Positions 222 to 15,404 of a DNA stretch of 15,485 nucleotides are shown in pieces. The stretch's first letter is position 1. Each line of letters opens with the position of its first letter. The position numbers and the translations under genes were made by a program. The notes beneath the pieces were generated by a model, which was given only the letters and a program-made list of their open reading frames with translations, did no database searches and was not told where the DNA came from. The DNA is from Acidovorax sp. (GTDB taxonomy: Bacteria > Pseudomonadota > Gammaproteobacteria > Burkholderiales > Burkholderiaceae_C). The stretch lies in the NCBI GenBank assembly GCA_011620245.1, contig WOZN01000054.1, positions 1-15,485 of the forward strand, written 5' to 3'.

Positions 222-1187
222 TCAGTCGATCTGGGCACCGGAGGCCTTCACCACCTTGCCCCACTTGTCAATATCGGCCTTGAGCAAAGCTGCAAACTCC
301 TGCGGCGTCGTCAGGTAGGGCTCGGCACCCTGGGCGGCGAACTTATCGTGCACGTCCCTGGACTTCACCACGTCGTTCACGTCGGCATTGATCTTCTGGA
401 CGATGTGGGCGGGCACCTTGGCGGGCGCGAAAAGACCGAACCAGGGGTTGACGTCGAAGTCTTTGTAGCCGGCTTCGGCGATGGTCGGGATGTTGCTGAA
501 CGAGGCGGCCCGCTTCGCACTGGTCATGGCGACAGGGCGCAGCATTCCGTTTTTGATCGCGCCTGAGACCGACGGCAGGCTGGTGAACACCAGGTCGATC
601 TGCCCACCCATCAGATCTTGCAGCGCGGGTGCTGCGCCGCGGTAAGGGATGTGGGCCAGCTTGACGTTCGCAGCAGCATTAAACATCTCGCCGACCAGGT
701 GGTTGACGGAGCCGTTGCCGGCCGAACCGAAAGTGATGCGTCCTTTTTTGGCGGCATCTATGATTTCGGGCACAGTCTTGAATGGCGAATCGACCTTGAC
801 CACCATGACGAAGGGCAGCGTGGCGAGGGTGGCCACCGGTGCGAAATCCCGCTCCGGGTCGAACGGAAGTTTCTTGTACAGCGTGCCGTTGATGGCATGT
901 GTGCCCACATAGCTCATGAGCAAGGTGTAGCCATCCGCCGGTGCGTTCGCCACCACTTCCATGCCCACGTTACCGCCGGCTCCGGCGCGGTTCTCCACTA
1001 CCACAGGCTGGCCCCATTTTTCACTGAGCTTCTGCGCGACGATGCGGGCAAGCGCATCCGACGCACCACCCGGCGTCTGCGGCACGACGATCTTCACGGG
1101 ACGGCTGGGGAAGTCCTGGGCGAGCACGCCGCTGGCCGCGATCATCAGTGCCGCAAGGGCGAGCCACTTTCGAGGGTTTTTGAACAT
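222..1187 (-). CDS. Bug/TctC-family periplasmic solute receptor (tripartite tricarboxylate transport type)
   Basis: This 321-residue protein has the usual length for the Bug/TctC receptors that abound in Burkholderiales and bind carboxylates or amides in the periplasm. Residues 1-23 are a signal peptide: a Lys/Arg start, then a hydrophobic core LALAALMIAASGVLA, with likely cleavage before QDFPSRP. The family hallmarks follow: PVKIVVPQTPGGASD, VVVENRAGAGGNVG and the late motif PYRGAAPALQDLMGGQIDLV. The ATG at 1187 is chosen because AGGAGA lies at the right distance upstream and the signal peptide starts there; an upstream extension of the frame is junk composition. It is the last intact gene of the catabolic operon, 26 bases after meaB, and probably delivers that pathway's carboxylate substrate. 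No intact membrane component (TctA/TctB) is in the window, and many Bug receptors are orphans. The ligand is unknown. Confidence 0.93.
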   Translation of the reverse strand: MFKNPRKWLALAALMIAASGVLAQDFPSRPVKIVVPQTPGGASDALARIVAQKLSEKWGQPVVVENRAGAGGNVGMEVVANAPADGYTLLMSYVGTHAINGTLYKKLPFDPERDFAPVATLATLPFVMVVKVDSPFKTVPEIIDAAKKGRITFGSAGNGSVNHLVGEMFNAAANVKLAHIPYRGAAPALQDLMGGQIDLVFTSLPSVSGAIKNGMLRPVAMTSAKRAASFSNIPTIAEAGYKDFDVNPWFGLFAPAKVPAHIVQKINADVNDVVKSRDVHDKFAAQGAEPYLTTPQEFAALLKADIDKWGKVVKASGAQID

Positions 1188-1213
1188 GCTGCGTCTCCTG
1201 TTGAGATGAAAGC

Positions 1214-2110
1214 TCAGCCCGTCTGGCTGATCTGCCTGAGCACCCAATCCAGTTGCTCGGCCATCGGCGCCTCGAAAAAAGCCGGCGCCTGGGCCGCCAC
1301 CAGTTCTGCCGCGCGGCGTTCGATCAGCCGTCGCAACCGGTAGCGCGCACGCTGCTGCTGCAGCACCGCGCGTCGCTCGCCCAGCCCCAACCAGACCTGA
1401 TGCCGGTCGATCTCGTCCGACAGCGCGGCGATGGATTCGGGACTGGACGACGACACCAGCAGCACCGAAGGCCGCCATGCGCCCTCCTCATGTCGGGCCA
1501 GCGAAGCGATGCGCTGGATGTCAGTCGCCATCTTCCGCGCGCCGGGCAGGTCGGCCTTGTTGATGACAAAGATATCGGCCATCTCCATGATGCCGGCCTT
1601 CATCGCCTGTACCACGTCGCCGCTTTCGGGCAGCAGCACCAGCACCAGCGTGTCCACCTGGACCCGCGCGGCGTATTCCGCCTGCCCCACGCCGACCGTC
1701 TCCAGCAACACTTCGTCGAAACCGAACGCGTCCATCAGGTCCAGCATCTCGGGCAGGTTGTCCGAGAGCCCGTCCGACGTCGAGCGCGAGCCGATGGAGC
1801 GGATGTACAGCTCCGACATGCCCTGCAGTTCATCCATGCGGATGCGGTCGCCCAGGATGGCGCCGCCCGAGCGCGGGCTGCTCGGGTCGATCGCCAGGAT
1901 GCCCAGGCGCCGGCCCGGTGCGCGTTGCAACGCCAGATGGCCCGCCAGCGTGCTCTTGCCGGCACCCGGCGCACCAGTCAGCCCGATGCGCCGGGCCGCA
2001 GCTGAAGAGAGGGTTCTTTGCGGGCTGCGCATCAAGTCTGATGCGCTGGCATTGGCCAGGTGCGTCAGGGCCAGCCCGAGGGCGCGGCGGTTCAGCGGCT
2101 CAGGGTTCAC
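1214..2110 (-). CDS. meaB: MeaB/ArgK-type GTPase chaperone of a B12-dependent acyl-CoA mutase
   Basis: This 298-residue G3E-family GTPase protects and reloads the adenosylcobalamin of acyl-CoA mutases in the cytoplasm. Visible motifs are the P-loop GAPGAGKST (46-54), DPSSPRSGGAILGDRIRMD (75-93, the family signature with Mg2+ and switch residues), ETVGVGQ (137-143, Walker B/switch II region) and NKAD (184-187, guanine specificity). The C-terminal helical part after about residue 235 is the dimerisation region in the family. The start is GTG at 2110, overlapping the stop of the CoA-transferase gene by four bases (GTGA), so translation is probably coupled. The N-terminus is somewhat shorter than in typical MeaB of about 310-330 residues. 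Its place in the operon shows that the chaperone is dedicated to the mutase encoded at 3231-5263. Confidence 0.95.
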   Translation of the reverse strand: MNPEPLNRRALGLALTHLANASASDLMRSPQRTLSSAAARRIGLTGAPGAGKSTLAGHLALQRAPGRRLGILAIDPSSPRSGGAILGDRIRMDELQGMSELYIRSIGSRSTSDGLSDNLPEMLDLMDAFGFDEVLLETVGVGQAEYAARVQVDTLVLVLLPESGDVVQAMKAGIMEMADIFVINKADLPGARKMATDIQRIASLARHEEGAWRPSVLLVSSSSPESIAALSDEIDRHQVWLGLGERRAVLQQQRARYRLRRLIERRAAELVAAQAPAFFEAPMAEQLDWVLRQISQTG

Positions 2111-3234
2111 GCGGGCACCTTTCCACAGACTTCGTCGCGATGCTCGTCGAGCAAGGGCGGCAGGCCGTAATGCGGCGTGTAGCCGTCGAACTTCAGCGGA
2201 CTGGCCACTGCGCGCAGCGGCTGCGAGCCGTCACCCAGCGTCACCACCAAGTCGCGCGAACGGGTCAGGTCACTCTCCAGCGCCTGCTTCAGGCTACCCA
2301 CTTCCGCAGCGACCACGCCCAGCGGCATCAGGCGGCGCACCCAGTCCCCGGCGGTGGCCGTCATCAGCACCTCGCCGATGGCGGCGAGCACGGTTTCGCG
2401 GTTCTCGCGCCGGCTGGCCATGGTGGCGAACTGCGGGTCGTCCATCCATTGCGGCCGGCCAGCTTCCTGGCAGAACTTCTGCCAGAACTTGTCGTGCGTG
2501 ATGAAGAGCGTCAGCCAGCCATCGGCGGTGGGAAATATCTGCGCCGGCACCATGTAGGGGTGCGCAGAATTGGCCAGACGACCGACCACTTCGCCGGTGT
2601 TGAGCGCCGCGCCGGCCAGGTAGTTCAACTGCGACAGCATCACGTCGTACATGGCGACATCCACCTGCCCGCCCTTGCCCTCGACGATCTTCGCCAGCAG
2701 GCCCATCGCGGCGACCAGGCCGGCCGAGTTGTCGACGGCGGAGTAGCCCGCCTTGGTTGGCGGCGCCGACGGGTCGCCGGTCAGCGCCATCACACCGGTC
2801 AGTGCCTGAATCACATAGTCGTAGGCAGGGTTTTCCGCATACGGGCCTTCGAGGCCATACCCCGTCAACGCGACGCAGACGATGCGTTGATTGCATTCAC
2901 GCAAGCTGTCGTAGGTCAGCCCGAGCTTCTTGATCGCGGACGGCCGCAGGTTCGTGATGAGCGCATGCGAGCGGCCCACAAGCTCCGCCAGCCTCGCCCG
3001 CCCCTGGTCGCTGGCAAGGTTGATCACCACGCTTTTCTTGTTGCGGTTGAGACTGGCGAAATACGCGTTGTGCGGGCCGATGAAATGCGGGCTGACGGTA
3101 CGACCGATGTCCCCCTCGGGTGGCTCGATCTTGATGACCTCGGCACCCATGTCGGCGAGCAGCATGCCGCAATACGGCCCGGCCAGCATGTGGCCGACCT
3201 CGATGATTCGCAAGCCGGACAGCGGACCACTCAT
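2107..3234 (-). CDS. Family III (CaiB/BaiF/Frc) acyl-CoA transferase
   Basis: This 375-residue protein covers a complete family III CoA-transferase, an enzyme that moves CoA between two carboxylic acids through a covalent aspartyl intermediate. The N-terminus GLRIIEVGHMLAGPYCGMLLADMGAEVIKIEPP (from residue 7) is the family's Rossmann-fold start, with the G-D motif following at 41-42. Asp168 in YSAVDNSAG aligns with the catalytic Asp of formyl-CoA transferase and CaiB (Asp169). GQVDVAMYDVML at 189-200 is the usual segment after the nucleophile. The ATG at 3234 overlaps the stop of the mutase small-subunit gene (ATGA). In this operon it most likely activates the imported acid by taking CoA from succinyl-CoA or from the pathway's own acyl-CoA product. 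Racemases share the fold, but a transferase fits the context better. The substrate cannot be read from the sequence. Confidence 0.9.
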   Translation of the reverse strand: MSGPLSGLRIIEVGHMLAGPYCGMLLADMGAEVIKIEPPEGDIGRTVSPHFIGPHNAYFASLNRNKKSVVINLASDQGRARLAELVGRSHALITNLRPSAIKKLGLTYDSLRECNQRIVCVALTGYGLEGPYAENPAYDYVIQALTGVMALTGDPSAPPTKAGYSAVDNSAGLVAAMGLLAKIVEGKGGQVDVAMYDVMLSQLNYLAGAALNTGEVVGRLANSAHPYMVPAQIFPTADGWLTLFITHDKFWQKFCQEAGRPQWMDDPQFATMASRRENRETVLAAIGEVLMTATAGDWVRRLMPLGVVAAEVGSLKQALESDLTRSRDLVVTLGDGSQPLRAVASPLKFDGYTPHYGLPPLLDEHRDEVCGKVPA

Positions 3235-3647
3235 GACAGTTGCTGCGCCAGTTCGGCGACGACATCGTCCAGCGGCATGTCGGCCGTAAACACCGCCGCG
3301 ACCCCCATCGCGCGCAGCACGTCCTGGTCGGCGCGGGGGATGGTGCCGCCGACGAAGACTTTGATATTGCCCGCCTTCAGTGCGCGCAGCTGCGCCAGCA
3401 CGTCGGCGACCAGCTCCTTGTGACTGCCGGACAGAATGCTTAAACCCACCGCGTCCACGCCCTCATCGACTGCCACCTGGGCGATCTGCAGCGGGGTGCG
3501 GCGCAGACCGGTGTAGATCACCTCGGCGCCCGCGTCACGCAGCGTCAGCGCCACGATCTTGGCGCCGATGTCATGGCCGTCCAGACCGGGCTTGCCGACC
3601 AAGATTCGCTTTGCAGCCAGTGGCCGCTGGGTCTTCAATTCGTTCAT
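3231..3647 (-). CDS. Acyl-CoA mutase small subunit, cobalamin-binding domain
   Basis: This 138-residue protein is a stand-alone B12-binding domain (methylmalonyl-CoA mutase C-terminal type). It carries the whole base-off/His-on signature: Lys19 and D23-G-H25-D-I-G28 (the DxHxxG loop, His25 being the lower cobalt ligand), S70-I-L72 (SxL) and G100-G101. Spacing from Lys19 to Asp23 and His25 equals that of Lys604, Asp608 and His610 in Propionibacterium methylmalonyl-CoA mutase. The ATG at 3647 is chosen because it overlaps the large-subunit stop in an ATGA; a start 30 bases further up is possible but lies inside the preceding gene and is less economical. It must pair with the chain encoded at 3644-5263 to form the active mutase. 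Separate large and small chains are also the arrangement of isobutyryl-CoA and 2-hydroxyisobutyryl-CoA mutases. Confidence 0.95.
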   Translation of the reverse strand: MNELKTQRPLAAKRILVGKPGLDGHDIGAKIVALTLRDAGAEVIYTGLRRTPLQIAQVAVDEGVDAVGLSILSGSHKELVADVLAQLRALKAGNIKVFVGGTIPRADQDVLRAMGVAAVFTADMPLDDVVAELAQQLS

Positions 3648-5263
3648 AGATTCACCGGCTCCTTGAATTCGCCCCATTGATTCTTCAGGCAGCTGACCAT
3701 TTCGCCCACCGTGGCATAGGCGTGGCAGCAGTCGACCAGATACGGCATGACGTTCTCACGGTCGTTGGCGGCCGCGGCGGACAGCTTTGCCAATGTGGCA
3801 TCCACCGTCGACTGCTGGCGCATGTCGAGGACGCGCTGGAACTTCTCCAGCGCCCGTTGCGCGACCGTCGGATCGAGCGTAAACAACTCGCGCACGCCGA
3901 CATCCTCGTTCTCTTTCTTGAAGAAATTCTGGCCCACGATGACGTTCTTGCCGGCGTCGGTGTCGAGCTTGCGCTCCAACCCACGCTCGGCGAGGCGAAG
4001 TTGCATCCAGCCGTCCTCGATGGCGGGGATCACGCCACCGTAGGCATCGATCTCTGACATCACCTTGGTGATCATTTCCTCCATGCGATCGGTGTGCTGC
4101 TCCAGGAAATAACTGCCGCCCAGGGGATCCACCGTGCGACCGATGCCGCTCTCAAAAGCCAGAATCTGTTGCGTGCGGACCGCAAGCTCGGCCGAGAATT
4201 CGGTGGGGATCTGGAAGGCCTCGTCCAGCGCGCAGGTAAAGATCGACTGCGCACCACCAAAGACTGCTGCCATCGTTTCCACCGCGACCCGCACGACGTT
4301 GTTATAGGGCTGAGGCGCCACCAGCGACGAACCACCGCACACCACGCCAAAGCGGAAATGCTGCGCTTTCGGGTCCTTCACACCGTAGCGCTCCTTCATG
4401 AAGCGTGCCCACAGGCGCCGACCGGCCCGAAATTTCGCGATTTCGTCGAAGAAATCCATGTGCACGTAAAAGAAAAACGACAGGCGCTTGGCGAACTTCT
4501 CGACGTCGCCGCCGCGACTGCGCAGTTCTTCCACGTACGCCAGACCATTGGCCAGGGTGTACGCCATCTCCTCGGCCGCCGTGGCGCCCGCGTCACGTAC
4601 GTGGGCACCGGCGATGCTGATGGCGTTGAAACGCGGCGAAACGTCGTTCGAATACAGGATCGAATCCGCGATCAACCGCATCGATGGGCGCACCGGGAAG
4701 ATCCAGGTGCCGCGCGCGACGTACTCCTTCAGGATGTCGTTCTGGATGGTGCCGGTAAGCTTCTCTCGCGGTACGCCCTGCTTGTCGGCCACCGCAAGAT
4801 ACATCGCGTAGATGATCGCGGCCGTGCCGTTGATGGTGAACGAGGTTGATATCTTCGACAGATCCAGCCCTTGGAACAGGATCTCGGCCTCGCTCAGATT
4901 CGACAGCGACACACCGACCTTGCCGATTTCCGGCCGGGCCATCGGATGGGTGGGGTCGTAACCGCACTGCGTCGGCAGGTCCAGCGCGACGGACAACCCC
5001 GTCTGGCCCTGGGCCAGCAGGAACTTGTAACGCTCGTTTGATTCCTCGGCTGTGCCGAAGCCCGAATACTGGCGGATGGTCCACAGCCGACCGTTGTAAC
5101 CGTCGGGGAAGATGCCGCGCGTGAACGGGTACTCACCAGGCTGACCGATGTTCTCGGGATGCACGGCGCTGGCATCCACGCTGGCGGGCACGGGAATGCC
5201 GCTGCGGCTGACCGACGTCATCACGGGCTCGCGCGCGGCGGCCAATTCCTCTTTCATGCTCAT
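3644..5263 (-). CDS. B12-dependent acyl-CoA mutase large subunit, divergent dicarboxylyl-CoA type
   Basis: This 539-residue substrate-binding TIM-barrel chain belongs to the methylmalonyl-CoA mutase family and lacks the cobalamin domain, which the next gene supplies. Motifs include TIRQYSGFGTAEESN (62-76), LTGTIQNDILKEY (169-181), GAHVRDAGAT (219-228) and AQSIFTCALDEAF (338-350). Compared with Propionibacterium numbering recalled from memory, it keeps Tyr89 (Tyr66), Gln197 (Gln174), Arg207 (Arg184), His244 (His221) and Glu370 (Glu348). It replaces Phe117 by Leu94, Tyr243 by Ala220, His328 by Gly306, Gln330 by Val308 and Asn366 by Cys344. Retained Tyr and Arg argue for a substrate with a free carboxylate; isobutyryl- and hydroxyisobutyryl-CoA mutases have Phe or Ile, and Gln, there. 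The smaller residues suggest a roomier pocket. The start at 5263 gives a one-base TGATG overlap with the crotonase stop and has AAGGG upstream. Mutase function is near certain, the substrate is not. Confidence 0.93.
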   Translation of the reverse strand: MSMKEELAAAREPVMTSVSRSGIPVPASVDASAVHPENIGQPGEYPFTRGIFPDGYNGRLWTIRQYSGFGTAEESNERYKFLLAQGQTGLSVALDLPTQCGYDPTHPMARPEIGKVGVSLSNLSEAEILFQGLDLSKISTSFTINGTAAIIYAMYLAVADKQGVPREKLTGTIQNDILKEYVARGTWIFPVRPSMRLIADSILYSNDVSPRFNAISIAGAHVRDAGATAAEEMAYTLANGLAYVEELRSRGGDVEKFAKRLSFFFYVHMDFFDEIAKFRAGRRLWARFMKERYGVKDPKAQHFRFGVVCGGSSLVAPQPYNNVVRVAVETMAAVFGGAQSIFTCALDEAFQIPTEFSAELAVRTQQILAFESGIGRTVDPLGGSYFLEQHTDRMEEMITKVMSEIDAYGGVIPAIEDGWMQLRLAERGLERKLDTDAGKNVIVGQNFFKKENEDVGVRELFTLDPTVAQRALEKFQRVLDMRQQSTVDATLAKLSAAAANDRENVMPYLVDCCHAYATVGEMVSCLKNQWGEFKEPVNL

Positions 5264-6057
5264 CAGGACCCTTTGGACAAAAGTTTTTCGGAGGCGGCCC
5301 AGTGGTCGTCGTGCAACCAGGTCTGGACCAGGTGTTTCTGTTCGATGGCGCGATGCGCCTGCCACCCCAGGCCCTGGCGTGCGGCGATGGCCTGGGCCTT
5401 GATGCCGCGCAGCACCTGCGGCGGACAGTGGTTCAGCGGCTTGGTGAAAGCAGCCAGGTCCTGGCCCTGCGGCCCGTCGGAGATCACCGCATCGGCCAGC
5501 CCCCAGGCCAGCGCCTGCTCGGCACTCACCAGTTCGCAGCGGCTCATCATGCGCATGGCGCGCGCCGGACCCATCAGCCGGAACAGGTCCGGCCCGCCAC
5601 CCCAGGCCGACGTGATGCCGAGTTTGGCCTGGATGTAGCCGATGCGGGCGTGCGAGGACTGCAGCCGCATGTCGCAGGCCAGCGCCAGCTCGGCGCCACC
5701 GCCGATGGCGTCGCCATTGAGCAAGGCAATCACCGGCACCGGGCAGCTGCGGATGGCCTCCAGCGCGGCACCGGCTTCTTCCATCATGACCATCACCGCG
5801 GCTTCATCGCGCACATTCGCCAGTTCGCGCAGGTCGCCACCCGCAGCGAAATAGCGCTCTCCAGAGCCGGTCACGACCAGATAGCGCACATCGTCGCGTG
5901 CGCCGGCGGTGCGAACTGCGGTGGCGAGTTCGGCCAGCACGGGACGGGCCAGTGCATTGTGTTTCTGAGCACGGTTCAAAGTGATCCAGACCGCGCCGGG
6001 ATGCGGCTCGTGGACCAGGACCGTGGCGACGGGGGTGTCGGGGTTTGTTGTTTGCAT
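5263..6057 (-). CDS. Crotonase-fold acyl-CoA enzyme (enoyl-CoA hydratase/decarboxylase family)
   Basis: This is a 264-residue crotonase with both oxyanion-hole elements: FAAGGDL (70-76) and NGDAIGGGAELALACD (114-129). Glu123 in the second corresponds to Glu144 of rat enoyl-CoA hydratase. The second hydratase glutamate (Glu164, normally in a FGxPE motif) is Gln143 here, in IGYIQAKLG, followed by ITSAWGGGPDL. Loss of that residue is usual in crotonases that do other chemistry, such as methylmalonyl-CoA decarboxylase (E. coli ScpB). Together with the mutase, MeaB and CoA-transferase downstream, this makes decarboxylation of a substituted malonyl-CoA an attractive role, but that is inference; the Tyr used by ScpB is not at the same position. 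It is the first gene of the operon, transcribed from the region shared with the IclR regulator. No clear Shine-Dalgarno sequence precedes the ATG at 6057. Confidence 0.88.
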   Translation of the reverse strand: MQTTNPDTPVATVLVHEPHPGAVWITLNRAQKHNALARPVLAELATAVRTAGARDDVRYLVVTGSGERYFAAGGDLRELANVRDEAAVMVMMEEAGAALEAIRSCPVPVIALLNGDAIGGGAELALACDMRLQSSHARIGYIQAKLGITSAWGGGPDLFRLMGPARAMRMMSRCELVSAEQALAWGLADAVISDGPQGQDLAAFTKPLNHCPPQVLRGIKAQAIAARQGLGWQAHRAIEQKHLVQTWLHDDHWAASEKLLSKGS

Positions 6058-6091
6058 AGAGGGATGTTAGATTTGCCACCATTCATTCACA

Positions 6092-6116
6092 AGAATGTTT
6101 ATTCTGTATTTAGAAC
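6092..6116. promoter_or_regulatory. Probable IclR-type operator in the divergent promoter region
   Basis: The 86 bases between the crotonase and regulator genes (6058-6143) are AT-rich compared with their surroundings. They hold three alternating half-sites: AGAAT (6092-6096), ATTCT (6101-6105) and TTAGAAC (6110-6116). The first two form an inverted repeat around GTTT, and TTCT with AGAA forms a second one around GTATTT. Overlapping half-sites like this are typical of IclR-family operators such as those of PobR and PcaU. The location over both likely promoters would let one regulator control itself and the operon. No single -35/-10 pair stands out, so promoter positions are not given. Confidence 0.5.
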
Positions 6117-6143
6117 AATCAGCAACTTGGAAGGCCACACGAC

Positions 6144-6965
6144 ATGAATACAGAACCCGACGTTCAGAATGCCGAACAAATCTCGTTGTCCGCCCCTGCC
6201 GCCGACCGGCCAGCGGGCGGCGTCGCCGTCACAGCCGTGGAACGCGTGCTCGACATCTTCGAGACCTTCCAAAAAGTGCAAAAACCGCTCTCGCTGACCG
6301 ACCTGGCCGAGCTCGCCGGCATCCCGAAGAGCAGTTGCCACGCCATCGTCGGAACACTCACGGCACGCGGCTATCTGTATTCGCTCACCCGGCCGCGCGC
6401 GCTCTACCCCACGCGGCGCTTCCTGGACATCGCGCGCGATATCCACGAGAAAGACCCGTTCGTGGAACGCGTGATGCCCCTGCTGGAACGCCTGCGCGAC
6501 GCCTCGCGTGAAACGGTGATCCTGGGCAAGCGGCAGGGTGATGCCGTGATCTACCTACAGGTGGTGGAGAGCCCACATCCGATCCGCTATTCGGCCCGGC
6601 CGGGCGACTTCAAACCGCTGCATTCCAGCTCAATCGGCAAAGCCCTGCTCGGCAGCCTGAAGGAGCCCGAGATGCGCGCGCAGATCGCGCGCCGCCCCCT
6701 GCCTGCGGTCACGGACAGCACGCTGACTGAGCCGGAAGCCCTCGCCCACGACATCCTGGAAGGCCGCCGGCGCGGCTATTTCGTCACGCGCGGAGAGAAC
6801 GTGCCGGACGTGTGGGCGGTGTCCGCCTTCCTGTCGGTGAACTCCGAAACGCTGGCCGTGGCCATTGCCGGACCGCAGCACCGGATGGAGAACAACGTCA
6901 TCGAATGCGCGCAGTTGCTGCTGGCCACATGCAGCTTCATTTCGCGGCAATGGAGCCGGTCGTGA
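6144..6965 (+). CDS. IclR-family transcriptional regulator
   Basis: This 273-residue protein has an unstructured first 25 residues, a winged helix-turn-helix at about 28-90 (AVERVLDIFETFQ, then LSLTDLAELAGIPKSSCHAI) and a C-terminal effector-binding domain from about 105. The latter shows the family marker SSSIGKALLGSL (161-172). GGAAGG-like purines (GGAAGG at 6129-6134) lie nine bases before the ATG. It is divergent from the catabolic operon with an 86-base gap, the usual layout for a pathway-specific IclR regulator. The family commonly binds aromatic acids, small organic acids or their CoA esters, so the effector is probably the pathway's substrate or an intermediate. Activator and repressor modes both exist in the family and the sequence does not decide between them. 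Its stop overlaps the start of the broken hydrolase gene (GTGA). Confidence 0.93.
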   Translation: MNTEPDVQNAEQISLSAPAADRPAGGVAVTAVERVLDIFETFQKVQKPLSLTDLAELAGIPKSSCHAIVGTLTARGYLYSLTRPRALYPTRRFLDIARDIHEKDPFVERVMPLLERLRDASRETVILGKRQGDAVIYLQVVESPHPIRYSARPGDFKPLHSSSIGKALLGSLKEPEMRAQIARRPLPAVTDSTLTEPEALAHDILEGRRRGYFVTRGENVPDVWAVSAFLSVNSETLAVAIAGPQHRMENNVIECAQLLLATCSFISRQWSRS

Positions 6966-7305: not shown

Positions 7306-8151
7306 TCATGTATACCGCTTGGCGCGCAGGTTGTCCTTCATCTGCTGCAGCACTGGTTGCAGCGATGGCCCGATGCGCAGCGCCACGCAGGTGGCCAGCA
7401 CGTCTATCACCAGCAGGTGCAGCAGGCGCGACACCATGGGGCTGTAGCGGTCGTAGCCCTCGGGGTGGTCGGCGGCCAGGTGGATGGCGCAGGCGGCCGC
7501 CAGGGGCGAGCCGCTGGCGGTGATGGCTATTGTTGTGGCGCCATTCTTGCGCGCGATGTCTGCGGCGTCCATCAGGTCGCGCGTGCGGCCCGAGTTGGAG
7601 ATGATCACCGCGCAATCGCCCGGGCCGAGCAGGGTGGCGCTCATCACCTGGATATGGCCGTCGCTGGTGGCGATGGACGTGACGCCCAGGCGAAAGAACT
7701 TGTGCTGCGCATCCTGCGCCACGAAGCCGGAGTTGCCCGCGCCGTAAAACTCGATGCGCTTGCCCGCTTTCCAGGTGCTGGTGATGGCCTCGGCGGCGCG
7801 CTCGATGGCTACGGTGCTGGCAGCGTTGCGGTATTGCAAAAAGGCCGCCACCGCGTTGTCCACCACCTTCACCAGCACATCGCCGGTCTTGTCGTCGGCG
7901 TCCACGCTGCGGTGGATGAAGGGCACGCCTTCGCTCACGCTGCCGGCCAGCTTGAGCTTGAAATCGGCCAGGCCGTCATAGCCCATGCTGCGGCAAAAGC
8001 GCACCACGGTGGGTTTGCTGACATGGGCGCGTTCGGCCAGTTCGCGCACGGGCAGGCGGGCAAACGCGCGGGCGTCGGCCAGCACCAGCCGGCCCACGCG
8101 TTGCTCGGCGGGGGCCAGGGAGGGCAGGGAGGCGGTGATGCGGTCCAGCAT
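7306..8151 (-). CDS. hexR: RpiR-family regulator of glucose metabolism, HexR
   Basis: This 281-residue protein has an N-terminal RpiR-type helix-turn-helix (about 1-75; LPVRELAERAHVSKPTVVRF at 33-52) and a C-terminal SIS sugar-phosphate domain. The SIS domain shows FYGAGNSGFVAQDAQHKFF (135-153) and VIISNSGRTRD (182-192), the two serine-containing loops that bind the ligand. In proteobacteria HexR represses zwf, edd, eda and related genes and is released by the Entner-Doudoroff intermediate KDPG. The neighbours here (tal, zwf, pgi, edd) make HexR by far the best assignment among RpiR regulators. The ATG at 8151 is preceded by a weak GGAA. It diverges from tal with a 255-base region that holds a HexR-like box. 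Confidence 0.93.
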   Translation of the reverse strand: MLDRITASLPSLAPAEQRVGRLVLADARAFARLPVRELAERAHVSKPTVVRFCRSMGYDGLADFKLKLAGSVSEGVPFIHRSVDADDKTGDVLVKVVDNAVAAFLQYRNAASTVAIERAAEAITSTWKAGKRIEFYGAGNSGFVAQDAQHKFFRLGVTSIATSDGHIQVMSATLLGPGDCAVIISNSGRTRDLMDAADIARKNGATTIAITASGSPLAAACAIHLAADHPEGYDRYSPMVSRLLHLLVIDVLATCVALRIGPSLQPVLQQMKDNLRAKRYT

Positions 8152-8406
8152 GTCATTCCATTTCTAAATCATCCGTGTCGTTGTTGCTTCGCCTTGTCGT
8201 GCTAGTGCACTGCCTGCGGCAGACACGAATGATTTGGAAACGGAATCAGTTCCACGGAAAACAGCAACGAGGCAACGCCAATGTAACTCGGTTTCATGCC
8301 GAGGGTTGCCTCAGTAACGAGCCGTCTACACTTGCGGGTTGCCGTCGCCCTCGCAAAAATGCTGCGGGGCCTGCTTGTCCACTGTTCACCCCATGAGACT
8401 TTCGCC
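8152..8406. promoter_or_regulatory. Divergent hexR/tal regulatory region
   Basis: This 255-base non-coding stretch separates the hexR and tal starts. It holds the hairpins CTGCCTGCGGCAG (8210-8222) and GGAATCAGTTCC (8242-8253), the palindrome GTGCTAGTGCAC (8199-8210), and an inverted repeat CTCGG/CCGAG (8287-8291 and 8299-8303) overlapping the HexR-like box. None is followed by a T-run, so they are not terminators. Promoters for both genes must lie here, but no clear -35/-10 pair could be picked. Confidence 0.55.
8282..8296 (+). promoter_or_regulatory. HexR-like operator between hexR and tal
   Basis: TGTAACTCGGTTTCA agrees with the gamma-proteobacterial HexR consensus TGTAATTAAATTACA at 10 of 15 positions. 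It shares the core GTAAyTnGGnTT with the boxes upstream of pgi and edd in this window. It lies about 110 bases before tal and 130 before hexR, which would allow autoregulation. The identification rests on visual comparison of a few sites. Confidence 0.4.
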
Positions 8407-9354
8407 ATGAATCAGCTTGACGCCCTCAAACAGTTCACCACCGTGGTCGCCGACACCGGCGATTTCAGGCAGCTGGCGCAATTCCAGCCCCAGGATGCGA
8501 CCACCAACCCGTCTTTGATTCTCAAGGCGGTGCAAAAGCCCGAATACGCGCCGCTGCTGCAGTCCACCGTCGCCCAATGGAAAGAACGCCCCATGGACGA
8601 AGTGATCGACCGCCTGCTGGTGCGCTTTGGCTGCGAGATTCTGGCCATCATTCCGGGGCGGGTGTCCACCGAGGTGGATGCGCGCCTGAGCTTTGACACC
8701 AGCGCCACCGTGACGCGGGCAGAGCGGATCATCGAGCTGTACCAGGCGCAGGGCATTCACATCGACCGGGTTCTCATCAAGGTGGCCGCCACCTGGGAGG
8801 GCATCAAGGCCGCTGAAAAGCTGGAGCAGCGCGGCATCCACACCAACCTCACGCTGCTGTTCTCGTTCTGCCAGGCGGTGGCCTGCGGGCAGGCCAGGGT
8901 GCAGCTGATTTCGCCGTTTGTGGGCCGTATCTACGACTGGTACAAGAAACAGGCCGGCGCCAACTGGGACGAGGCTGCCCACGGCGGTGCCAACGACCCC
9001 GGCGTGCAGTCGGTCACGCAGATCTACAACCATTACAAGCATTTCGGCATTGCCACCGAGGTGATGGGTGCGAGCTTTCGCAACATCGGCCAGATCACGG
9101 CGCTGGCGGGCTGCGATCTGCTCACCATCGCCCCCGAGCTGCTGGCCCAGCTGGCGGCTTCCGAGGCGCCACTGCAACCCGCTCTGAATGCCGAGGCCGC
9201 CCGCGCCATGCAGCTGCCCGCAGTCCAGTTCGACGAGGCCGGTTTCCGTTATGCGCTGAATGAAGATGCCATGGCCACCGAAAAGCTGGCCGAGGGCATC
9301 CGCAGCTTTGCGGCAGACGCTGTGAAGCTGGAAAAGCTCATCCAGGCGGTTTGA
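8407..9354 (+). CDS. tal: Transaldolase
   Basis: This 315-residue enzyme has the size and motifs of TalB-type transaldolases, which exchange a dihydroxyacetone unit between sedoheptulose-7-phosphate and glyceraldehyde-3-phosphate in the non-oxidative pentose phosphate pathway. Asp16 in VADTGDF and Lys125 in [16 protein letters not shown] correspond to the acid/base Asp17 and Schiff-base Lys132 of E. coli Tal[10 protein letters not shown] (30-38) and [11 protein letters not shown] are also diagnostic. The start [10 protein letters not shown] at 8407 matches the usual N-terminus; the frame is open further upstream, but that part has no family similarity. The Shine-Dalgarno sequence is weak. It converges on zwf with only 15 bases between the stops and no visible terminator. 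Confidence 0.96.
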
Positions 9355-9369
9355 TCCTGCGCGCACAGT

Positions 9370-10824
9370 TCACATCTCTTCGCTCCAGCAAAAGCCGTCG
9401 CGCGCAATCATGGCGCTGGCGGCGCTGGGCCCCCAGCTGCCAGCCGCATAGGGCCGCGGGCCATGTGGGTCGGTGCGCCAGTGCGCCAAAATGGGCTCCA
9501 CCCAGCGCCAGGCTTCTTCCTGTTCGTCACTGCGCACAAACAGGTTCAGCCGGCCAGCAATCACGTCCAGCAGCAGGCGCTCGTAGGCACCCACGCGTTC
9601 GGTGCCAAAGCGCTGGTCAAAGTCCAGGTTGAGGTGCACCGGTACCAGGGCGGGCTCGGTCTGGTGCTGCGCAGCGCCCTGCGCCAGCAGATGCAGCTCC
9701 AGCCCATCGCGGGGTTGCAGGTTGATCACCAGGCGGTTGGCTGCCCCTGCAGGGGTCTTGAAAATCGGGTGGGGTACGGGCCGGAAATTCACCACGATGT
9801 GGGCGTTGCGGCCGGCCAGGCGTTTGCCTGTGCGGATGAAAAAGGGCACGCCCGCCCAGCGCCAGTTGGAGATCTCGGTGCGCAGGGCAACGAAGGTCTC
9901 GGTGGTGCTGCCAGGGGCAACGCCGCTTTCCTGCAAATACCCCGCAACGGCGTGGCCCTGGCTGGTGCCGGCCGCATATTGCCCCCGGATCACATGCTGG
10001 CCGATGGTGTCGGGGCTCCAGGGCTTGAGCGATTGCAGCACCTTGAGCTTTTCGTCGCGAATGGCATTGGCACTGGCGTTGATGGGCGGCTCCATGCCGA
10101 TGGCGCACAGCAATTGCAGGGCATGGTTTTGCACCATGTCGCGCAGGGCACCGGTCTGGTCGTAGAAGGCGCCGCGGGTTTCCACACCCAGCTCTTCGGC
10201 AATGGTGATCTGGATGTTGGCAATGGTTTCGCGCCGCCACAGGGGCTCGAACAGCGCATTGCCAAAGCGCATCGCAAAGAGGTTCTGTACCGACGGCTTG
10301 CCCAGGTAATGGTCGATGCGAAACACCTGGTCTTCCCGCAGCACATGGCGCAGCGCCTCGTTGATGGCCCGGTTCGATGGCAGGTCATGCCCCAGGGGCT
10401 TTTCGAGCACCACGCGGGTGGTGGGGCCGTTCAGGCCCACGGCGGCGATCTGCTCGCAGACGGTGGTGAAAAGGCTGGGCGCCGTGGCGACATACATCAC
10501 CAGCGAATCGGCATTGCGGGCTTTGAGCATGTCGGCCAGCCGCACATAATCCTGCGGTTGCGACAGGTCCATGCGCAGGTGGTGCAGCAATGCAGCAAAG
10601 CGCGAAAACTCGTCTGGTGCCGGGCGCTTGGCCAGTTCCACGTTGTCAAAGCAAGACTGGATCCGGTTGCGATATTGTTCGTCGGTCAAGTCATCGCGCG
10701 CCACGCTGATAATGCGGCCACCCCCGGGCAGCGTACCGTGGCGAAAGGCCTGGAACAGGGCGGGCAAAATCTTGCGCCAGGCGAGGTCGCCCGTGCCGCC
10801 GAACAGGACGAGGTCAAAACTCAT
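9370..10824 (-). CDS. zwf: Glucose-6-phosphate 1-dehydrogenase
   Basis: This 484-residue enzyme oxidises glucose-6-phosphate to 6-phosphogluconolactone with NADP+ or NAD+, the entry to both the Entner-Doudoroff and oxidative pentose phosphate routes. The Rossmann loop FGGTGDLAWRKILPAL lies at 8-23 and the EKPLG motif at 141-145. The signature RIDHYLGK (169-176) holds the substrate-binding Asp171-His172, and His234 in DMVQNHALQ is the catalytic base position. Length is normal. The ATG at 10824 has GGAGA a few bases upstream. It diverges from pgi across 163 bases containing two HexR-like boxes. No devB-type 6-phosphogluconolactonase (pgl) gene accompanies it in this window. Confidence 0.97.
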   Translation of the reverse strand: MSFDLVLFGGTGDLAWRKILPALFQAFRHGTLPGGGRIISVARDDLTDEQYRNRIQSCFDNVELAKRPAPDEFSRFAALLHHLRMDLSQPQDYVRLADMLKARNADSLVMYVATAPSLFTTVCEQIAAVGLNGPTTRVVLEKPLGHDLPSNRAINEALRHVLREDQVFRIDHYLGKPSVQNLFAMRFGNALFEPLWRRETIANIQITIAEELGVETRGAFYDQTGALRDMVQNHALQLLCAIGMEPPINASANAIRDEKLKVLQSLKPWSPDTIGQHVIRGQYAAGTSQGHAVAGYLQESGVAPGSTTETFVALRTEISNWRWAGVPFFIRTGKRLAGRNAHIVVNFRPVPHPIFKTPAGAANRLVINLQPRDGLELHLLAQGAAQHQTEPALVPVHLNLDFDQRFGTERVGAYERLLLDVIAGRLNLFVRSDEQEEAWRWVEPILAHWRTDPHGPRPYAAGSWGPSAASAMIARDGFCWSEEM

Positions 10825-10865
10825 GGGGTCTCCGTGGATGGGGCGATGCTGCGAAGGGCATCCAT

Positions 10866-10880
10866 TGTGATCTTGTTACA
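10866..10880 (-). promoter_or_regulatory. HexR-like operator close to zwf
   Basis: On the minus strand this reads TGTAACAAGATCACA, which agrees with the gamma-proteobacterial HexR consensus TGTAATTAAATTACA at 11 of 15 positions and has near-palindromic arms (TGTAA/TCACA). It lies about 42 bases before the zwf start, downstream of the proposed zwf promoter, where a bound repressor would block elongation. Confidence 0.4.
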
Positions 10881-10900
10881 TTGATGCAGGAGTATCGCCA

Positions 10901-10928
10901 GTTTTACGGGCCTGATTTCGAGTTGCAA
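10901..10928 (-). promoter_or_regulatory. Possible sigma-70 promoter of zwf
   Basis: On the minus strand TTGCAA (-35, 10923-10928) and TAAAAC (-10, 10901-10906) are separated by 16 bases. Each matches its consensus at four of six positions. It lies between the two HexR-like boxes. The match is modest, so the call is tentative. Confidence 0.25.
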
Positions 10929-10950
10929 GCGTCGCAATTCTTGAAGTTTC

Positions 10951-10965
10951 AGTAATTTGGTTACT
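10951..10965 (+). promoter_or_regulatory. HexR-like operator close to pgi
   Basis: AGTAATTTGGTTACT has perfect five-base arms (AGTAA/TTACT) and sits 22 bases before the pgi start. It shares the GTAAyTnGG core with the boxes at 8282 and 13590 and agrees with the gamma-proteobacterial HexR consensus at 10 of 15 positions. It is the most symmetrical of the four candidates. Confidence 0.5.
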
Positions 10966-10987
10966 TTTTTAATCGCGTGCCATCGAT

Positions 10988-12550
10988 ATGTCCATGTTTC
11001 TTCGTTGCGATCAGACACCCGAGTGGCCGTCCCTGAAGGCCCATTTCTCTGCGGAGGGTGCATGTCTTGATCTGCGGCAGGCATTTGCCGACGACGCGCA
11101 ACGGTTTGAACATTTCAGCCAGGCGGCCCCCCACCTGTTTGCTGATCTGTCGAAAAACCTCTGGGATCGGGCCACCGAATCGCTGCTGCTGGACATGGCG
11201 CGCTCCTGCGGCCTGGCGCAGCACCGTGATGCCATGCTGCATGGCGAGCCCGTCAACAACACCGAAGGCCGTGCAGTTTTGCACACCCTGCTGCGCCGGC
11301 CGGCCGGGCAGGCATTGCCGGGCGACCTGCCCGGCGTGGCGCCCGCTCTGGTCGAAGTGCACGCCACGCTGGAGGCGATGCTGGCCTACGCCGGCCGCAT
11401 GCGCGCTGACGATGGCATCACCGATGTGGTGAACATCGGCATTGGCGGCTCCGACCTGGGGCCGCACATGACCGTGCTGGCGCTGGATGCCTTGCGCGCG
11501 CCGGGCAAGCGCTTTCACTTCGTCTCGAACGTCGACGGCCATGAACTGGCGGGCGTGCTGCGGCTGCTGCGGCCGCAAAGCACCTTGTTTCTGGTGGCGT
11601 CCAAGACCTTCACCACGGCAGAAACCATGACCAATGCGCGCTCTTGCCTGGCGTGGTTTGCGCAGCAAGGGGGGACGGATGTGGCGCGCCATTTTGTGGC
11701 GCTCACCACGCAGGTCGATGCGGCGAAAGCCCTGGGCATCACCACCACGTTTGGCTTCTGGGACTGGGTGGGTGGGCGCTATTCGCTGTGGTCTGCCATC
11801 GGCCTGCCGCTGGCCATCTCGATTGGCGCTGCCGGTTTTCGGGCTCTGCTGGCGGGTGGGCATGCCATGGACGAGCATTTTCGCACGGCGCCGCTGGAGG
11901 CCAACCTGCCCGTGCGGCTGGGCATTCTGGATGTCTGGTACCGCAATTTCCATGGCTTCACGAGCCGCTGTATCGCGCCCTACCATGCCGGGCTGCGGCG
12001 CTGGCCGGCCTATCTGCAGCAACTGGAAATGGAGAGCAATGGCAAGCGCGTGGCCGCCAGCGGCGAGGCCCTGGCCTATGCCACGTCGCCCGTGTTGTGG
12101 GGCGAGCCGGGAACGAATGGGCAGCATGCTTTTTTTCAGATGCTGCACCAGGGCTCGGATGTGCTGCCGCTGGAAATCGTGGCAGTGCGCAAGCCTTCGC
12201 ATCCGCTTGCCGGCCACCATGAGCAGGTGCTGGCCAACGCCCTGGCGCAGGCGCAGGCGCTGATGGTGGGAAAGGCCAGCGATGATGGGCACCGGCATTT
12301 CCCGGGCAACCGGCCCAGCACTTTTCTACTGCTGGAGTCGCTCACGCCCGAGTCGCTGGGGGCGCTCATCGCCTTGCAGGAGCATCGGGTGTTTGTCAGC
12401 GGCGCCCTGTGGGGCATCAACAGTTTTGACCAGTGGGGGGTGGAACTGGGCAAGGTGCTGGCGCGCGACCTGCAGCAGCGCCTGGCCAATGGGGATGCCT
12501 CGGGGCTCGATGCCTCTACGGCAGGCTTGCTGCACCGCATGCGCGGCTGA
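10988..12550 (+). CDS. pgi: Glucose-6-phosphate isomerase
   Basis: This 520-residue phosphoglucose isomerase interconverts glucose-6-phosphate and fructose-6-phosphate. Motifs in order are GIGGSDLGP (151-159), FVSNVDG (178-184), SKTFTTAETMTNA (205-217, phosphate binding), FWDWVGGRYS (257-266), GEPGTNGQHAFFQMLHQG (372-389) and FDQWGVELGK (480-489). Glu373, His387 and Lys489 match the catalytic Glu, His and Lys of the family. It is a little shorter than the 549-residue E. coli enzyme, with a shorter N-terminus. The ATG at 10988 has no obvious Shine-Dalgarno sequence, and a second in-frame ATG at 10994 is an alternative. It converges on the lactonase gene with 13 bases between stops. Confidence 0.97.
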   Translation: MSMFLRCDQTPEWPSLKAHFSAEGACLDLRQAFADDAQRFEHFSQAAPHLFADLSKNLWDRATESLLLDMARSCGLAQHRDAMLHGEPVNNTEGRAVLHTLLRRPAGQALPGDLPGVAPALVEVHATLEAMLAYAGRMRADDGITDVVNIGIGGSDLGPHMTVLALDALRAPGKRFHFVSNVDGHELAGVLRLLRPQSTLFLVASKTFTTAETMTNARSCLAWFAQQGGTDVARHFVALTTQVDAAKALGITTTFGFWDWVGGRYSLWSAIGLPLAISIGAAGFRALLAGGHAMDEHFRTAPLEANLPVRLGILDVWYRNFHGFTSRCIAPYHAGLRRWPAYLQQLEMESNGKRVAASGEALAYATSPVLWGEPGTNGQHAFFQMLHQGSDVLPLEIVAVRKPSHPLAGHHEQVLANALAQAQALMVGKASDDGHRHFPGNRPSTFLLLESLTPESLGALIALQEHRVFVSGALWGINSFDQWGVELGKVLARDLQQRLANGDASGLDASTAGLLHRMRG

Positions 12551-12563
12551 CGCCAAGAGCGTT

Positions 12564-13499
12564 TCAGCAGGGCCGGAAAAAGTTCACCGGCAGCCCCGGA
12601 ATGTCCACCCGCATGCGCAGCAGGGAGCCCGCAGGTACGGCAGCCTCGCATTCGCTGACGGGCCGGCCAGTGCGCGCCGAGGTGATGTAGAGCGTGCGCA
12701 GATCGTCATCGCCAAAGCACACCATGGTGGGGCATTGCACCGGCATGGGGATGCGTTGCAGCACCGCGCCCGCTGGCGACAGCTGCACAATGCTGGCCCC
12801 TTCATACATGGCCACCCAGTAATTCCCTTGTGCATCCACGCTGGCGCCGTCGGGGCGGCCGCCATAGGCTTCGCCCGGAGTCTTGGGAGCGAAGCGAACC
12901 CAGGGCTGCCGATCACTGATGCGGCCCGTGGCGACATCGAACGCAAAGCGGTCAATGCGGTGTTCGGGGGTGTTGGACCAATACATCCAGCGGTTGTCGG
13001 GGCTGAAGGCCAGGCCATTGGCCGTGAAGTTGCCGCCCGCCATGTGGTCGACGGCGCAGCGGCCCGTGGTGCAGTCCAGGCGCCACAGGGCGGCACCCGC
13101 ATGCGTGCGCGGGGTGATCATGGAGCCGGCCCAGAACCGGCCAGCGGTGTCGCATTTGCCATCGTTCAGGCGCAGCAGCCGGGTGTCGTGTGCATCGGCC
13201 GGCAGGGTCGCCAGGCAAGCCAGCGCGCCTGTCGTGCAGTCCAGGTGATAAAACCCGTCGCGTAACCCGATTACTATTTTTCCATCCGCCGATGGTGCGC
13301 AGCATCCGGGCTCGGACGGCATCTTCCACTGCCAGCGGTGGCCGGTGCCGGGCGCCCATGCGTTCACTGCAAAGCCTGCGATGTCGCACCAATAAAGGCG
13401 CTTCTCCAGCGGGTGCCAGAACGGTGATTCGCCCAGTTCCGAGGGCGGCAGAGGAAGGGCTTGCAAGGGCATTGCTTGATCGGAATTTGTTATCCACAT
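12564..13499 (-). CDS. SMP-30/gluconolactonase family sugar lactonase
   Basis: This six-bladed beta-propeller of about 311 residues belongs to the SMP-30/gluconolactonase/LRE family, which hydrolyses aldonolactones with a divalent metal. All four metal-site positions are visible: Glu24 in LGESPFW, Asn112 in LNDGKCD, Asn161 in TANGLAFSPD and Asp217 in GGRPDGASVD. The start is uncertain. ATG 13499 gives the numbering used here, while ATG 13472 would give a protein nine residues shorter; neither has a strong ribosome-binding site, and the open frame reaches 13559. Being divergent from edd and next to pgi and zwf, it probably acts on gluconolactone or 6-phosphogluconolactone and could stand in for the missing pgl. 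Other aldonolactones, such as those of arabinose or galactose, cannot be excluded. Confidence 0.88.
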   Translation of the reverse strand: MWITNSDQAMPLQALPLPPSELGESPFWHPLEKRLYWCDIAGFAVNAWAPGTGHRWQWKMPSEPGCCAPSADGKIVIGLRDGFYHLDCTTGALACLATLPADAHDTRLLRLNDGKCDTAGRFWAGSMITPRTHAGAALWRLDCTTGRCAVDHMAGGNFTANGLAFSPDNRWMYWSNTPEHRIDRFAFDVATGRISDRQPWVRFAPKTPGEAYGGRPDGASVDAQGNYWVAMYEGASIVQLSPAGAVLQRIPMPVQCPTMVCFGDDDLRTLYITSARTGRPVSECEAAVPAGSLLRMRVDIPGLPVNFFRPC

Positions 13500-13511
13500 G
13501 AATCCACATGA
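13492..13511. repeat. Tandem 10-bp direct repeat
   Basis: ATCCACATGA occurs twice without a gap (13492-13501 and 13502-13511). It straddles the proposed lactonase start at 13499, so one copy supplies the start codon on the minus strand and the other an upstream ATG in another frame. It may be a small duplication that affects start choice. Confidence 0.6.
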
Positions 13512-13512
13512 T

Positions 13513-13587
13513 TTACGCAAAACAGGCCCAGACAAGCTGCCTGCCACAAAGAGGCACATACCGTTGTGGCATCCTTATTTTGCGTAA
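13513..13587. repeat. Perfect 10-bp inverted repeat in the lactonase/edd intergenic region
   Basis: TTACGCAAAA (13513-13522) and TTTTGCGTAA (13578-13587) are exact reverse complements with 55 bases between them. The distance is about five helical turns between centres plus some, so they could be paired protein-binding sites joined by a loop. They differ from the HexR-like box next to them and may belong to a second regulator. A long-stem RNA hairpin is less likely with such a loop. Confidence 0.5.
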
Positions 13588-13589
13588 GT

Positions 13590-13604
13590 CCTAATCCAAT
13601 TACA
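13590..13604 (-). promoter_or_regulatory. HexR-like operator upstream of edd
   Basis: On the minus strand this reads TGTAATTGGATTAGG, agreeing at 11 of 15 positions with the gamma-proteobacterial HexR consensus TGTAATTAAATTACA. It lies 30 bases before the chosen edd start, a position where binding would block the edd promoter, and abuts the inverted repeat arm ending at 13587. Confidence 0.45.
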
Positions 13605-13634
13605 TTCTAGGACGATACCCGGATGGAGCATCCC

Positions 13635-15402
<1,768 letters not shown>

Positions 15403-15404
<2 letters not shown>

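Follow-up and report, generated by a model that had tools for sequence, protein, structure and literature searches.

To our knowledge, few natural acyl-CoA mutase reactions that depend on adenosylcobalamin (AdoCbl) are known, and in one of the closest described systems, the Sbm operon of Escherichia coli (scpA-argK-scpB-scpC), a mutase, a G-protein chaperone, a crotonase-fold decarboxylase and a CoA-transferase stand together in one operon and turn succinate into propionate through methylmalonyl-CoA. A comparable gene set lies on the minus strand at positions 222-6057 of the stretch analysed here (the window), a contig of 15,485 nucleotides (WOZN01000054.1; contig C103 of the host genome) from a metagenome-assembled genome of Acidovorax sp. 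that is 72% complete. Six genes, each with a strong Pfam match, are read as one operon, and the components that a preliminary description of this DNA had listed, namely a crotonase, a split mutase, a CoA-transferase, MeaB and a receptor, are all recovered among these matches. What is new, as judged from sequence comparison, is the pairing of a separate clade of mutases with a putative decarboxylase of the ECHDC1 type. The operon probably serves to break down a 2-substituted succinate brought in from outside the cell, and in this pathway the mutase reaction would be followed by decarboxylation to a straight acyl-CoA.

The same description had called the operon Sbm-like, and the likeness holds for the activities but not for homology. 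ScpA is a single chain with the pocket of methylmalonyl-CoA mutase (MCM), whereas the mutase of the window consists of two chains and belongs to another clade; ScpB falls outside the group of the window crotonase, against which it scores only 38 bits; no receptor occurs in the E. coli stretch shown; and ScpC presumably belongs to another transferase family than the family III enzyme of the window. The iaa system offers a second comparison, since it too combines a split mutase acting on a substituted succinyl-CoA (IaaGH), a family III CoA-transferase (IaaL), a binding protein and the decarboxylation of a malonyl-CoA, but IaaGH belongs to another clade with another pocket, and where the window has a crotonase the iaa system has IaaF, described as an oxidising acyl-CoA dehydrogenase/decarboxylase (PMC8360864). 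MatB and ActD, of the matlystatin and actinonin pathways, have been proposed to rearrange alkylmalonyl- and alkylsuccinyl-CoA, a likeness that rests on the published description and not on sequence, and they would work in the biosynthetic direction (PMC5719088). Finally, ECHDC1, the animal ethylmalonyl-CoA decarboxylase, is a metabolite-repair enzyme in mammals (PMC8473548), whereas its predicted counterpart here stands in a bacterial operon with a mutase.

The mutase and its substrate pocket

The large subunit (3644..5263, minus strand, 539 aa) matches PF01642 at 1.2e-186, and the small, B12-binding subunit (3231..3647, minus strand, 138 aa) matches PF02310 at 5.1e-22 and carries DGHDIG and GLSIL/GG motifs, so the large domain and the B12-binding domain with DxHxxG that define an AdoCbl acyl-CoA mutase are both present. 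In a tree of 66 rows, 14 proteobacterial and 7 actinobacterial members form one clade (support 100/95) that lies outside the MCM, ethylmalonyl-CoA mutase (ECM), 2-hydroxyisobutyryl-CoA mutase (HCM), IcmF and IaaG types, with MCM (6 rows, ScpA included), the IaaG type (5) and IcmF (2) each supported at 100/100. The bootstrap of this tree is not fully settled and some other branches are long, that of ECM included; ECM is represented in alignment and tree by L217 alone, and one row (L005) is wrongly labelled HCM, hence the two changes shown for the HCM group. The preliminary description had named nesting among characterised MCMs as an outcome that would count against its reading, and the large subunit does not nest within the MCM rows used.

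Residues are numbered as in Propionibacterium shermanii MCM, with columns placed on human MCM. At the MCM pocket positions Y243, H328, Q330 and N366 the window has A, G, V and C, in agreement with the earlier proposal of a two-chain mutase with an altered pocket. Q197, H244, Y89 and R207 are retained in 29/29 clade members compared, a set that omits the sequence of G018 and the split gene of G562; we take the equivalents of His244 and Gln197 to be catalytic in AdoCbl mutases, and Y89 and R207 to bind the free carboxylate in MCM. Around these residues the clade is nearly uniform and differs from the 100 distinct other mutases (104 rows, four of them duplicates): W210 occurs in 29/29 members against 17/100, A241 in 29/29 against 1/100, A243 in 29/29 against 0/100, G328 in 29/29 against 1/100 (the ECM, L217), V330 in 29/29 against 1/100 and L117 in 28/29 against 3/100. 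Position 366 is Ala in 18 members and Cys in 11, whereas 80 of the 104 other rows have Asn there. Among the best 120 proteins listed as nearest to the mutase, 118 match each of the four motif strings to the letter and the remaining two fit looser forms; where database rows among the matches listed carry a name, it is methylmalonyl-CoA mutase. Presumably the changed positions line the substrate cavity, as in MCM structures. A literature search on MCM pocket residues listed two papers, both unrelated. The mutase thus forms, by its residues and its place in the tree, a subfamily of its own in which the free-carboxylate site is retained and smaller residues surround the remainder. Because the carboxylate pair is kept while W210, A241, A243, G328 and V330 are fixed, the pocket predicts a substituted succinyl- or malonyl-CoA substrate bulkier than methylmalonyl-CoA.

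None of the mutase identities compared fits. MCM itself is set aside by the separate clade and by the replacement of Y243, H328, Q330 and N366, and the genome holds an ordinary MCM elsewhere (L172, a 753-aa frame, G000:C423, 2091-3587), so that the operon is not needed for methylmalonyl-CoA. The comparison with ECM relies on L217, a 739-aa frame taken to be ethylmalonyl-CoA mutase because it stands beside ccr, whose crotonyl-CoA carboxylase/reductase product scores 616.7 bits (cut-off 378.55). Y89 and R207 are kept and H328 is replaced by Gly in both, but L217 retains Y243, Q330 and F117 where the window has A243, V330 and L117, and the window clade does not group with this sole, long-branched ECM. 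With HcmAB the mutase shares its two-chain architecture, and the large subunit has its best PDB match in 4r3u (1.2e-146), but HcmA has Ile and Gln where the window clade keeps Tyr89 and Arg207; on these residues and the tree, a 2-hydroxyisobutyryl-CoA mutase is rejected.

IaaG-type mutases were recognised by the operon of L167, which encodes hydantoinase A and B, an acyl-CoA dehydrogenase, a B12 subunit, a molybdopterin-binding protein, a family III CoA-transferase and a periplasmic binding protein; we take hydantoinase genes to be part of an iaa-type operon. These mutases have W210 and C366 as in the window, but keep Y243 and carry N114, C241, N287, I328 and G or A330; the other clade and pocket, together with the lack of hydantoinase and IaaF-type neighbours in the window, argue against an IaaGH identity. 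The published iaa cluster comprises an acyl-CoA dehydrogenase, the mutase pair, a CoA-transferase and a binding protein, components that L167 has as well (PMC8360864).

Further split mutases of the window's order (L157, L158, L159, L160/L161 and L162/L164) have other unusual pockets, with Val, Cys, Asn or Gly at position 243 in L157, L158, L159 and L162/L164; several stand near Bug-like, ligase or CoA-transferase genes, and by their residues they look like more uncharacterised mutase types. Two very divergent mutases, L211 (G018:C2:432006-433598) and L206 (G897:C65), have no R207 equivalent in the alignment, and the former lies about 10 kb from the G018 operon.

The crotonase and the conserved gene set

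The first gene of the operon encodes a crotonase (5263..6057, minus strand, 264 aa, PF00378 at 1e-40) for which the preliminary description had reported the loss of the hydratase Glu164. The sequence agrees: E123 is retained and Gln143 replaces the second glutamate, followed by A-W152-G-G, where we take E123 and Gln143 to be the equivalents of Glu144 and Glu164 in rat hydratase numbering. The second glutamate is found in 0/10 window-type sequences, which have Gln there or, in one case (L154), His, and Trp152 before G-G is invariant among them. All of the 120 nearest database proteins listed have Gln before X-W-G-G (120/120), although the names given, where there are any among the matches listed, are enoyl-CoA hydratase, 3-hydroxybutyryl-CoA dehydratase or the like. 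The combination of E123, Gln143 and Trp152 occurs in 0/10 of the genome's other crotonases that were aligned (there are 11, the fragment L190 being left out). An ordinary enoyl-CoA hydratase, which requires both glutamates, is accordingly rejected, and the earlier concern that the protein might be one was not borne out by its residues.

ECHDC1 shows the same pattern, with the first Glu kept, X-W-G-G, and the second Glu replaced by His in 110 of 111 motif-matching proteins and by Gln in one. These 111 come from 120 listed proteins, the other nine comprising one with an insertion and the rest cut or altered at the motif. In a tree of 41 rows, a single clade (100/99) unites the window type (12) with the actinobacterial type (5), L230 and ECHDC1 (5), while PaaF, PaaG, CaiD, ScpB and the genome's other crotonases fall outside it. 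The approximately unbiased (AU) test rejects a grouping in which ScpB, but not ECHDC1, joins the window and actinobacterial types (p 0.013), and one of the window type with hydratases that leaves the actinobacterial type and ECHDC1 outside (p 0.018). We therefore infer that the crotonase is a putative alkylmalonyl-CoA decarboxylase of the ECHDC1 type. ECHDC1 decarboxylates ethylmalonyl-CoA, and methylmalonyl-CoA about 20-fold less efficiently, and in mice lacking the enzyme a compound tentatively assigned as 2,2-dimethylmalonyl-CoA is raised as well (PMC8473548).

Mutase and crotonase occur together. Among 299 genomes of the window's family, assigned to Burkholderiaceae by way of its named relatives, the mutase clade is found in three (G000, the window's own genome, G018 and G131), and the window-type crotonase, defined by an E value of 1e-75 or better with the best 9 candidates per genome scored, in exactly those three (Fisher p 2e-7, a value that ignores kinship). 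In a selected set of proteobacterial genomes, a crotonase of at least 290 bits is present in 11/11 mutase-positive genomes and in 0/12 mutase-negative ones, the latter chosen by the author among genomes already sampled; one of the negatives, G644, reaches 240 bits but has no such Trp. In five of six actinobacterial mutase carriers a crotonase scores 165-177 bits and shows the same Glu, Gln and W-G-G residues.

The clade is known from 16 proteobacterial genomes, the window's included, and from Actinomycetota at 53-57% identity, and few genomes carry it: counting the window's own, it occurs in 3/299 genomes of the family, 3/369 of the class and 4/398 of the phylum. A search of 399 genomes at the level of the order found it in the own genome, G396 and G562, the gene of G562 being split across two contigs, and the family search did not find it in three further genomes of the window's genus. 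The co-occurrence of all six genes, suggested earlier as a check, holds largely for the intracellular components but hardly for the receptor. With loci of one genome counted once (L003/L152, L004/L153, L154/L196 and L155/L156), 14 of the 15 genomes in which its position can be assessed have the crotonase directly upstream of the mutase, since contig L032 starts at the mutase; the exception is G776, whose crotonase is on another contig. MeaB is adjacent to the mutase in 13/16 (none was seen for G396, for G562 or on L032, a short contig), and the CoA-transferase directly follows the small subunit in 11/16, whereas the Bug receptor is conserved in only 3/16 (window, G131 and G018). An IclR gene is near the operon in 8/16. 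This conserved adjacency across 16 proteobacterial genomes means that the gene set is more than a chance grouping.

Other uptake genes near the operon are DctP and DctM of a tripartite ATP-independent periplasmic (TRAP) transporter in L194, a liv-type ATP-binding cassette (ABC) transporter in L193, and a TAXI receptor with DctM upstream of the operon in L035. That the importers differ at the same operon supports an imported substrate.

The proposed pathway and its alternatives

The proposed pathway would begin with capture of a dicarboxylate by the TctC/Bug periplasmic carboxylate receptor (222..1187, minus strand, 321 aa, PF03401 at 2.2e-74), which has a signal-peptide-like leader as judged by eye. 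The CoA-transferase (2107..3234, minus strand, 375 aa) would then form a succinyl-type CoA ester, with succinyl-CoA as a guess at the donor. Its assignment to family III, made in the preliminary description, is upheld by PF02515 (1.6e-110) together with the predicted catalytic Asp168, which is invariant in 12/12 aligned sequences. Four actinobacterial counterparts are 56-61% identical to it, and although it reaches no NCBIfam cut-off, the PDB structures scoring best against its profile are the formyl-CoA transferase 10uh, YfdE, a CaiB/BaiF protein and SUGCT (succinate-hydroxymethylglutarate CoA-transferase). A racemase of the same fold was rejected, since PDB racemases reach at most 88.6 bits and methylfumaryl-CoA isomerase 96.0, against 281.2 for formyl-CoA transferase.

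The split mutase, kept loaded by the MeaB-type G-protein chaperone (1214..2110, minus strand, 298 aa, PF03308 at 5.7e-70, P-loop GAPGAGKST), would shift the thioester group to give an alkylmalonyl-CoA, as its fold, catalytic residues and pocket suggest, and the crotonase, by its residues and its grouping with ECHDC1, would decarboxylate this product to a straight acyl-CoA for beta-oxidation: R-CH(CO-CoA)-CH2-COOH -> R-CH2-CH(COOH)-CO-CoA -> R-CH2-CH2-CO-CoA + CO2. With R as methyl this would be the chemistry of ECM and ECHDC1, and with R as phenyl the first step would be that of IaaGH; here R would exceed H, and probably also methyl, in size, because the pocket changes point to more room than in ECM, at positions other than those of IaaG. 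The order of import, CoA transfer, rearrangement and decarboxylation, put forward in the preliminary description, is thus supported by the clade, the ECHDC1 grouping, the co-occurrence in 3/299 genomes and the exchange of importers.

More tentatively, and with somewhat less than even confidence, the mutase may catalyse a new AdoCbl-dependent reaction of a succinyl-CoA whose branch is larger than methyl and possibly gem-dialkyl, and would be paired with the bacterial ECHDC1-type decarboxylase; an example would be 2,2-dimethylsuccinyl-CoA, converted through isopropylmalonyl-CoA to isovaleryl-CoA. Facial selectivity may perhaps be reversed, since A243 removes the residue said to fix 2R selectivity in MCM. 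If true, this would give bacteria a general means of turning branched dicarboxylates into straight products, common to Proteobacteria and Actinomycetota.

Several points weigh against the proposed pathway. The roles given to residues 89, 207, 243, 328 and 330 are carried over from MCM structures. A tree that places the window and actinobacterial crotonases with hydratases and keeps ECHDC1 apart survives the AU test at 5% (p 0.064), and several PDB hydratases outscore ECHDC1 by profile (6lvp at 157 bits, ECHDC1 at 135 with a similar, not identical, profile), so that the ECHDC1-type assignment rests on residues, tree and partner. The actinobacterial carrier G1404 shows no such crotonase at the threshold (1/6). 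Finally, the mutase lacks a CoA-transferase as its neighbour in 5/16 proteobacterial genomes, and that of G776 sits among FMO-, luciferase- and FAD_binding_2-type genes, both of which suggest that the substrate need not be imported everywhere. Genes of the FMO, luciferase, P450, ligase or acyl-CoA dehydrogenase type are among the neighbours in G776, G1304 and several Actinomycetota, so that in those genomes a pathway degrading rings or chains may itself yield the CoA ester; branched dicarboxylates derived from terpenoid-like compounds would be compatible with this. Neighbour genes differ among the relatives' operons, and the substrate cannot be read from them.

The best surviving alternative, though an unlikely one, is a module specific for methylsuccinate, in which methylsuccinyl-CoA would pass through ethylmalonyl-CoA to butyryl-CoA, the ECM reaction reversed and followed by ECHDC1 chemistry. 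G328 is common only to the ECM L217 among the 100 distinct others, and ethylmalonyl-CoA is the preferred substrate of ECHDC1 (PMC8473548). An important role in soils has also been proposed for methylsuccinate, which supports growth of Cupriavidus necator, but the same report describes another route for methylsuccinate, one without a mutase (PMC12290011). Moreover, ECM keeps Y243, Q330 and F117, where the clade has smaller residues in 29/29, 29/29 and 28/29 members, an enlargement seemingly beyond the needs of one extra methyl, and the clade does not group with ECM in the tree, which holds one ECM on a long branch.

An Sbm-type cycle from succinate through methylmalonyl-CoA to propionate would account for the set of activities shared with E. 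coli and for the retained carboxylate-binding pair, but it is most improbable given a pocket and clade unlike those of MCM, ScpA included, the ordinary MCM elsewhere in the genome, the rejected grouping with ScpB, and the roughly 20-fold lower efficiency of ECHDC1 on methylmalonyl-CoA (PMC8473548). The phenylsuccinate-like substrate named earlier as one candidate, or more broadly an aryl-succinate pathway for phenyl-, benzyl- or aminophenylsuccinate, is just as improbable: IaaG-type mutases do have W210 and C366 in common with the window, and IaaGH does act on a phenylsuccinyl-CoA-type substrate with the CoA-transferase IaaL (PMC8360864), but the IaaG types form another clade (100/100) with Y243 kept and other changes in the pocket, the transferases that go with them share 24-29% identity with that of the window, IaaF is oxidising, and no aromatic-degradation gene lies directly beside the operons examined by Pfam, for which some of the neighbours were scanned.

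The preferred pathway, with a branched dicarboxylate entering and a straight acyl-CoA leaving, would add a well-defined mutase clade with a fixed, distinct pocket in two phyla, and would place an ECHDC1-type decarboxylase in a bacterial operon. A literature search for an ECHDC1-type decarboxylase or alkylmalonyl-CoA together with a mutase returned no such bacterial module among the matches listed, subscription journals not being covered. The mutase and crotonase pair predicts that alkylmalonyl-CoAs are the substrates and that a branched dicarboxylate supports growth, and this prediction is testable, since the operon is present in the named isolate Billgrantia pellis and crotonases 80-81% identical were found, among the matches listed, in Ramlibacter tataouinensis and R. 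henchirensis.

The locus and variant operons in relatives

The junctions of the operon were read in the sequence, which gave corrected starts for the large subunit (5263), the small subunit (3647) and the receptor (1187). The first four junctions overlap by 1-4 bases (TGATG, ATGA, ATGA and GTGA in gene order), the large subunit starting at the TGATG junction with the crotonase and the small subunit at an ATGA overlap, while the receptor gene begins 26 bases beyond MeaB with its own AGGAGA ribosome-binding site. A divergent IclR-family regulator (6144..6965, plus strand, PF01614 and PF09339) is separated from the operon by an intergenic region of 86 bases (6058..6143). Sugar-catabolism genes adjoin at 7306-15404, where transaldolase, zwf, pgi and edd are all above NCBIfam cut-offs, a HexR-like regulator is below its cut-off and an SMP-30/gluconolactonase-like protein is named by eye only. 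No link between these genes and the mutase operon was seen, and as an explanation of the operon they were rejected because a HexR-type regulator, the only one of them probed there, has no match in the relatives' stretches.

Relatives show several variants of the operon. In L191 (G776:C21), from a genome of another family, a mutase 88% identical to that of the window stands with a small subunit and MeaB amid two FMO-like genes, one luciferase-like gene and one gene each of the FAD_binding_2, acyl-CoA dehydrogenase and thiolase-like kinds, and horizontal transfer of this mutase is a possibility. In the actinobacterial L051 a gene for a luciferase-like monooxygenase of 318 aa (9892-10848) lies between the small subunit and the CoA-transferase, a position at which it also occurs in L039, L040, L047, L050 and L102 and from which it is absent in L044. 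A variant operon without the transferase, consisting of crotonase, mutase, small subunit and MeaB followed by a LysR-type gene, is found in L192, L034 and L036; an alpha/beta-hydrolase gene lies upstream of it in L192 and L034, and L036 begins at the crotonase.

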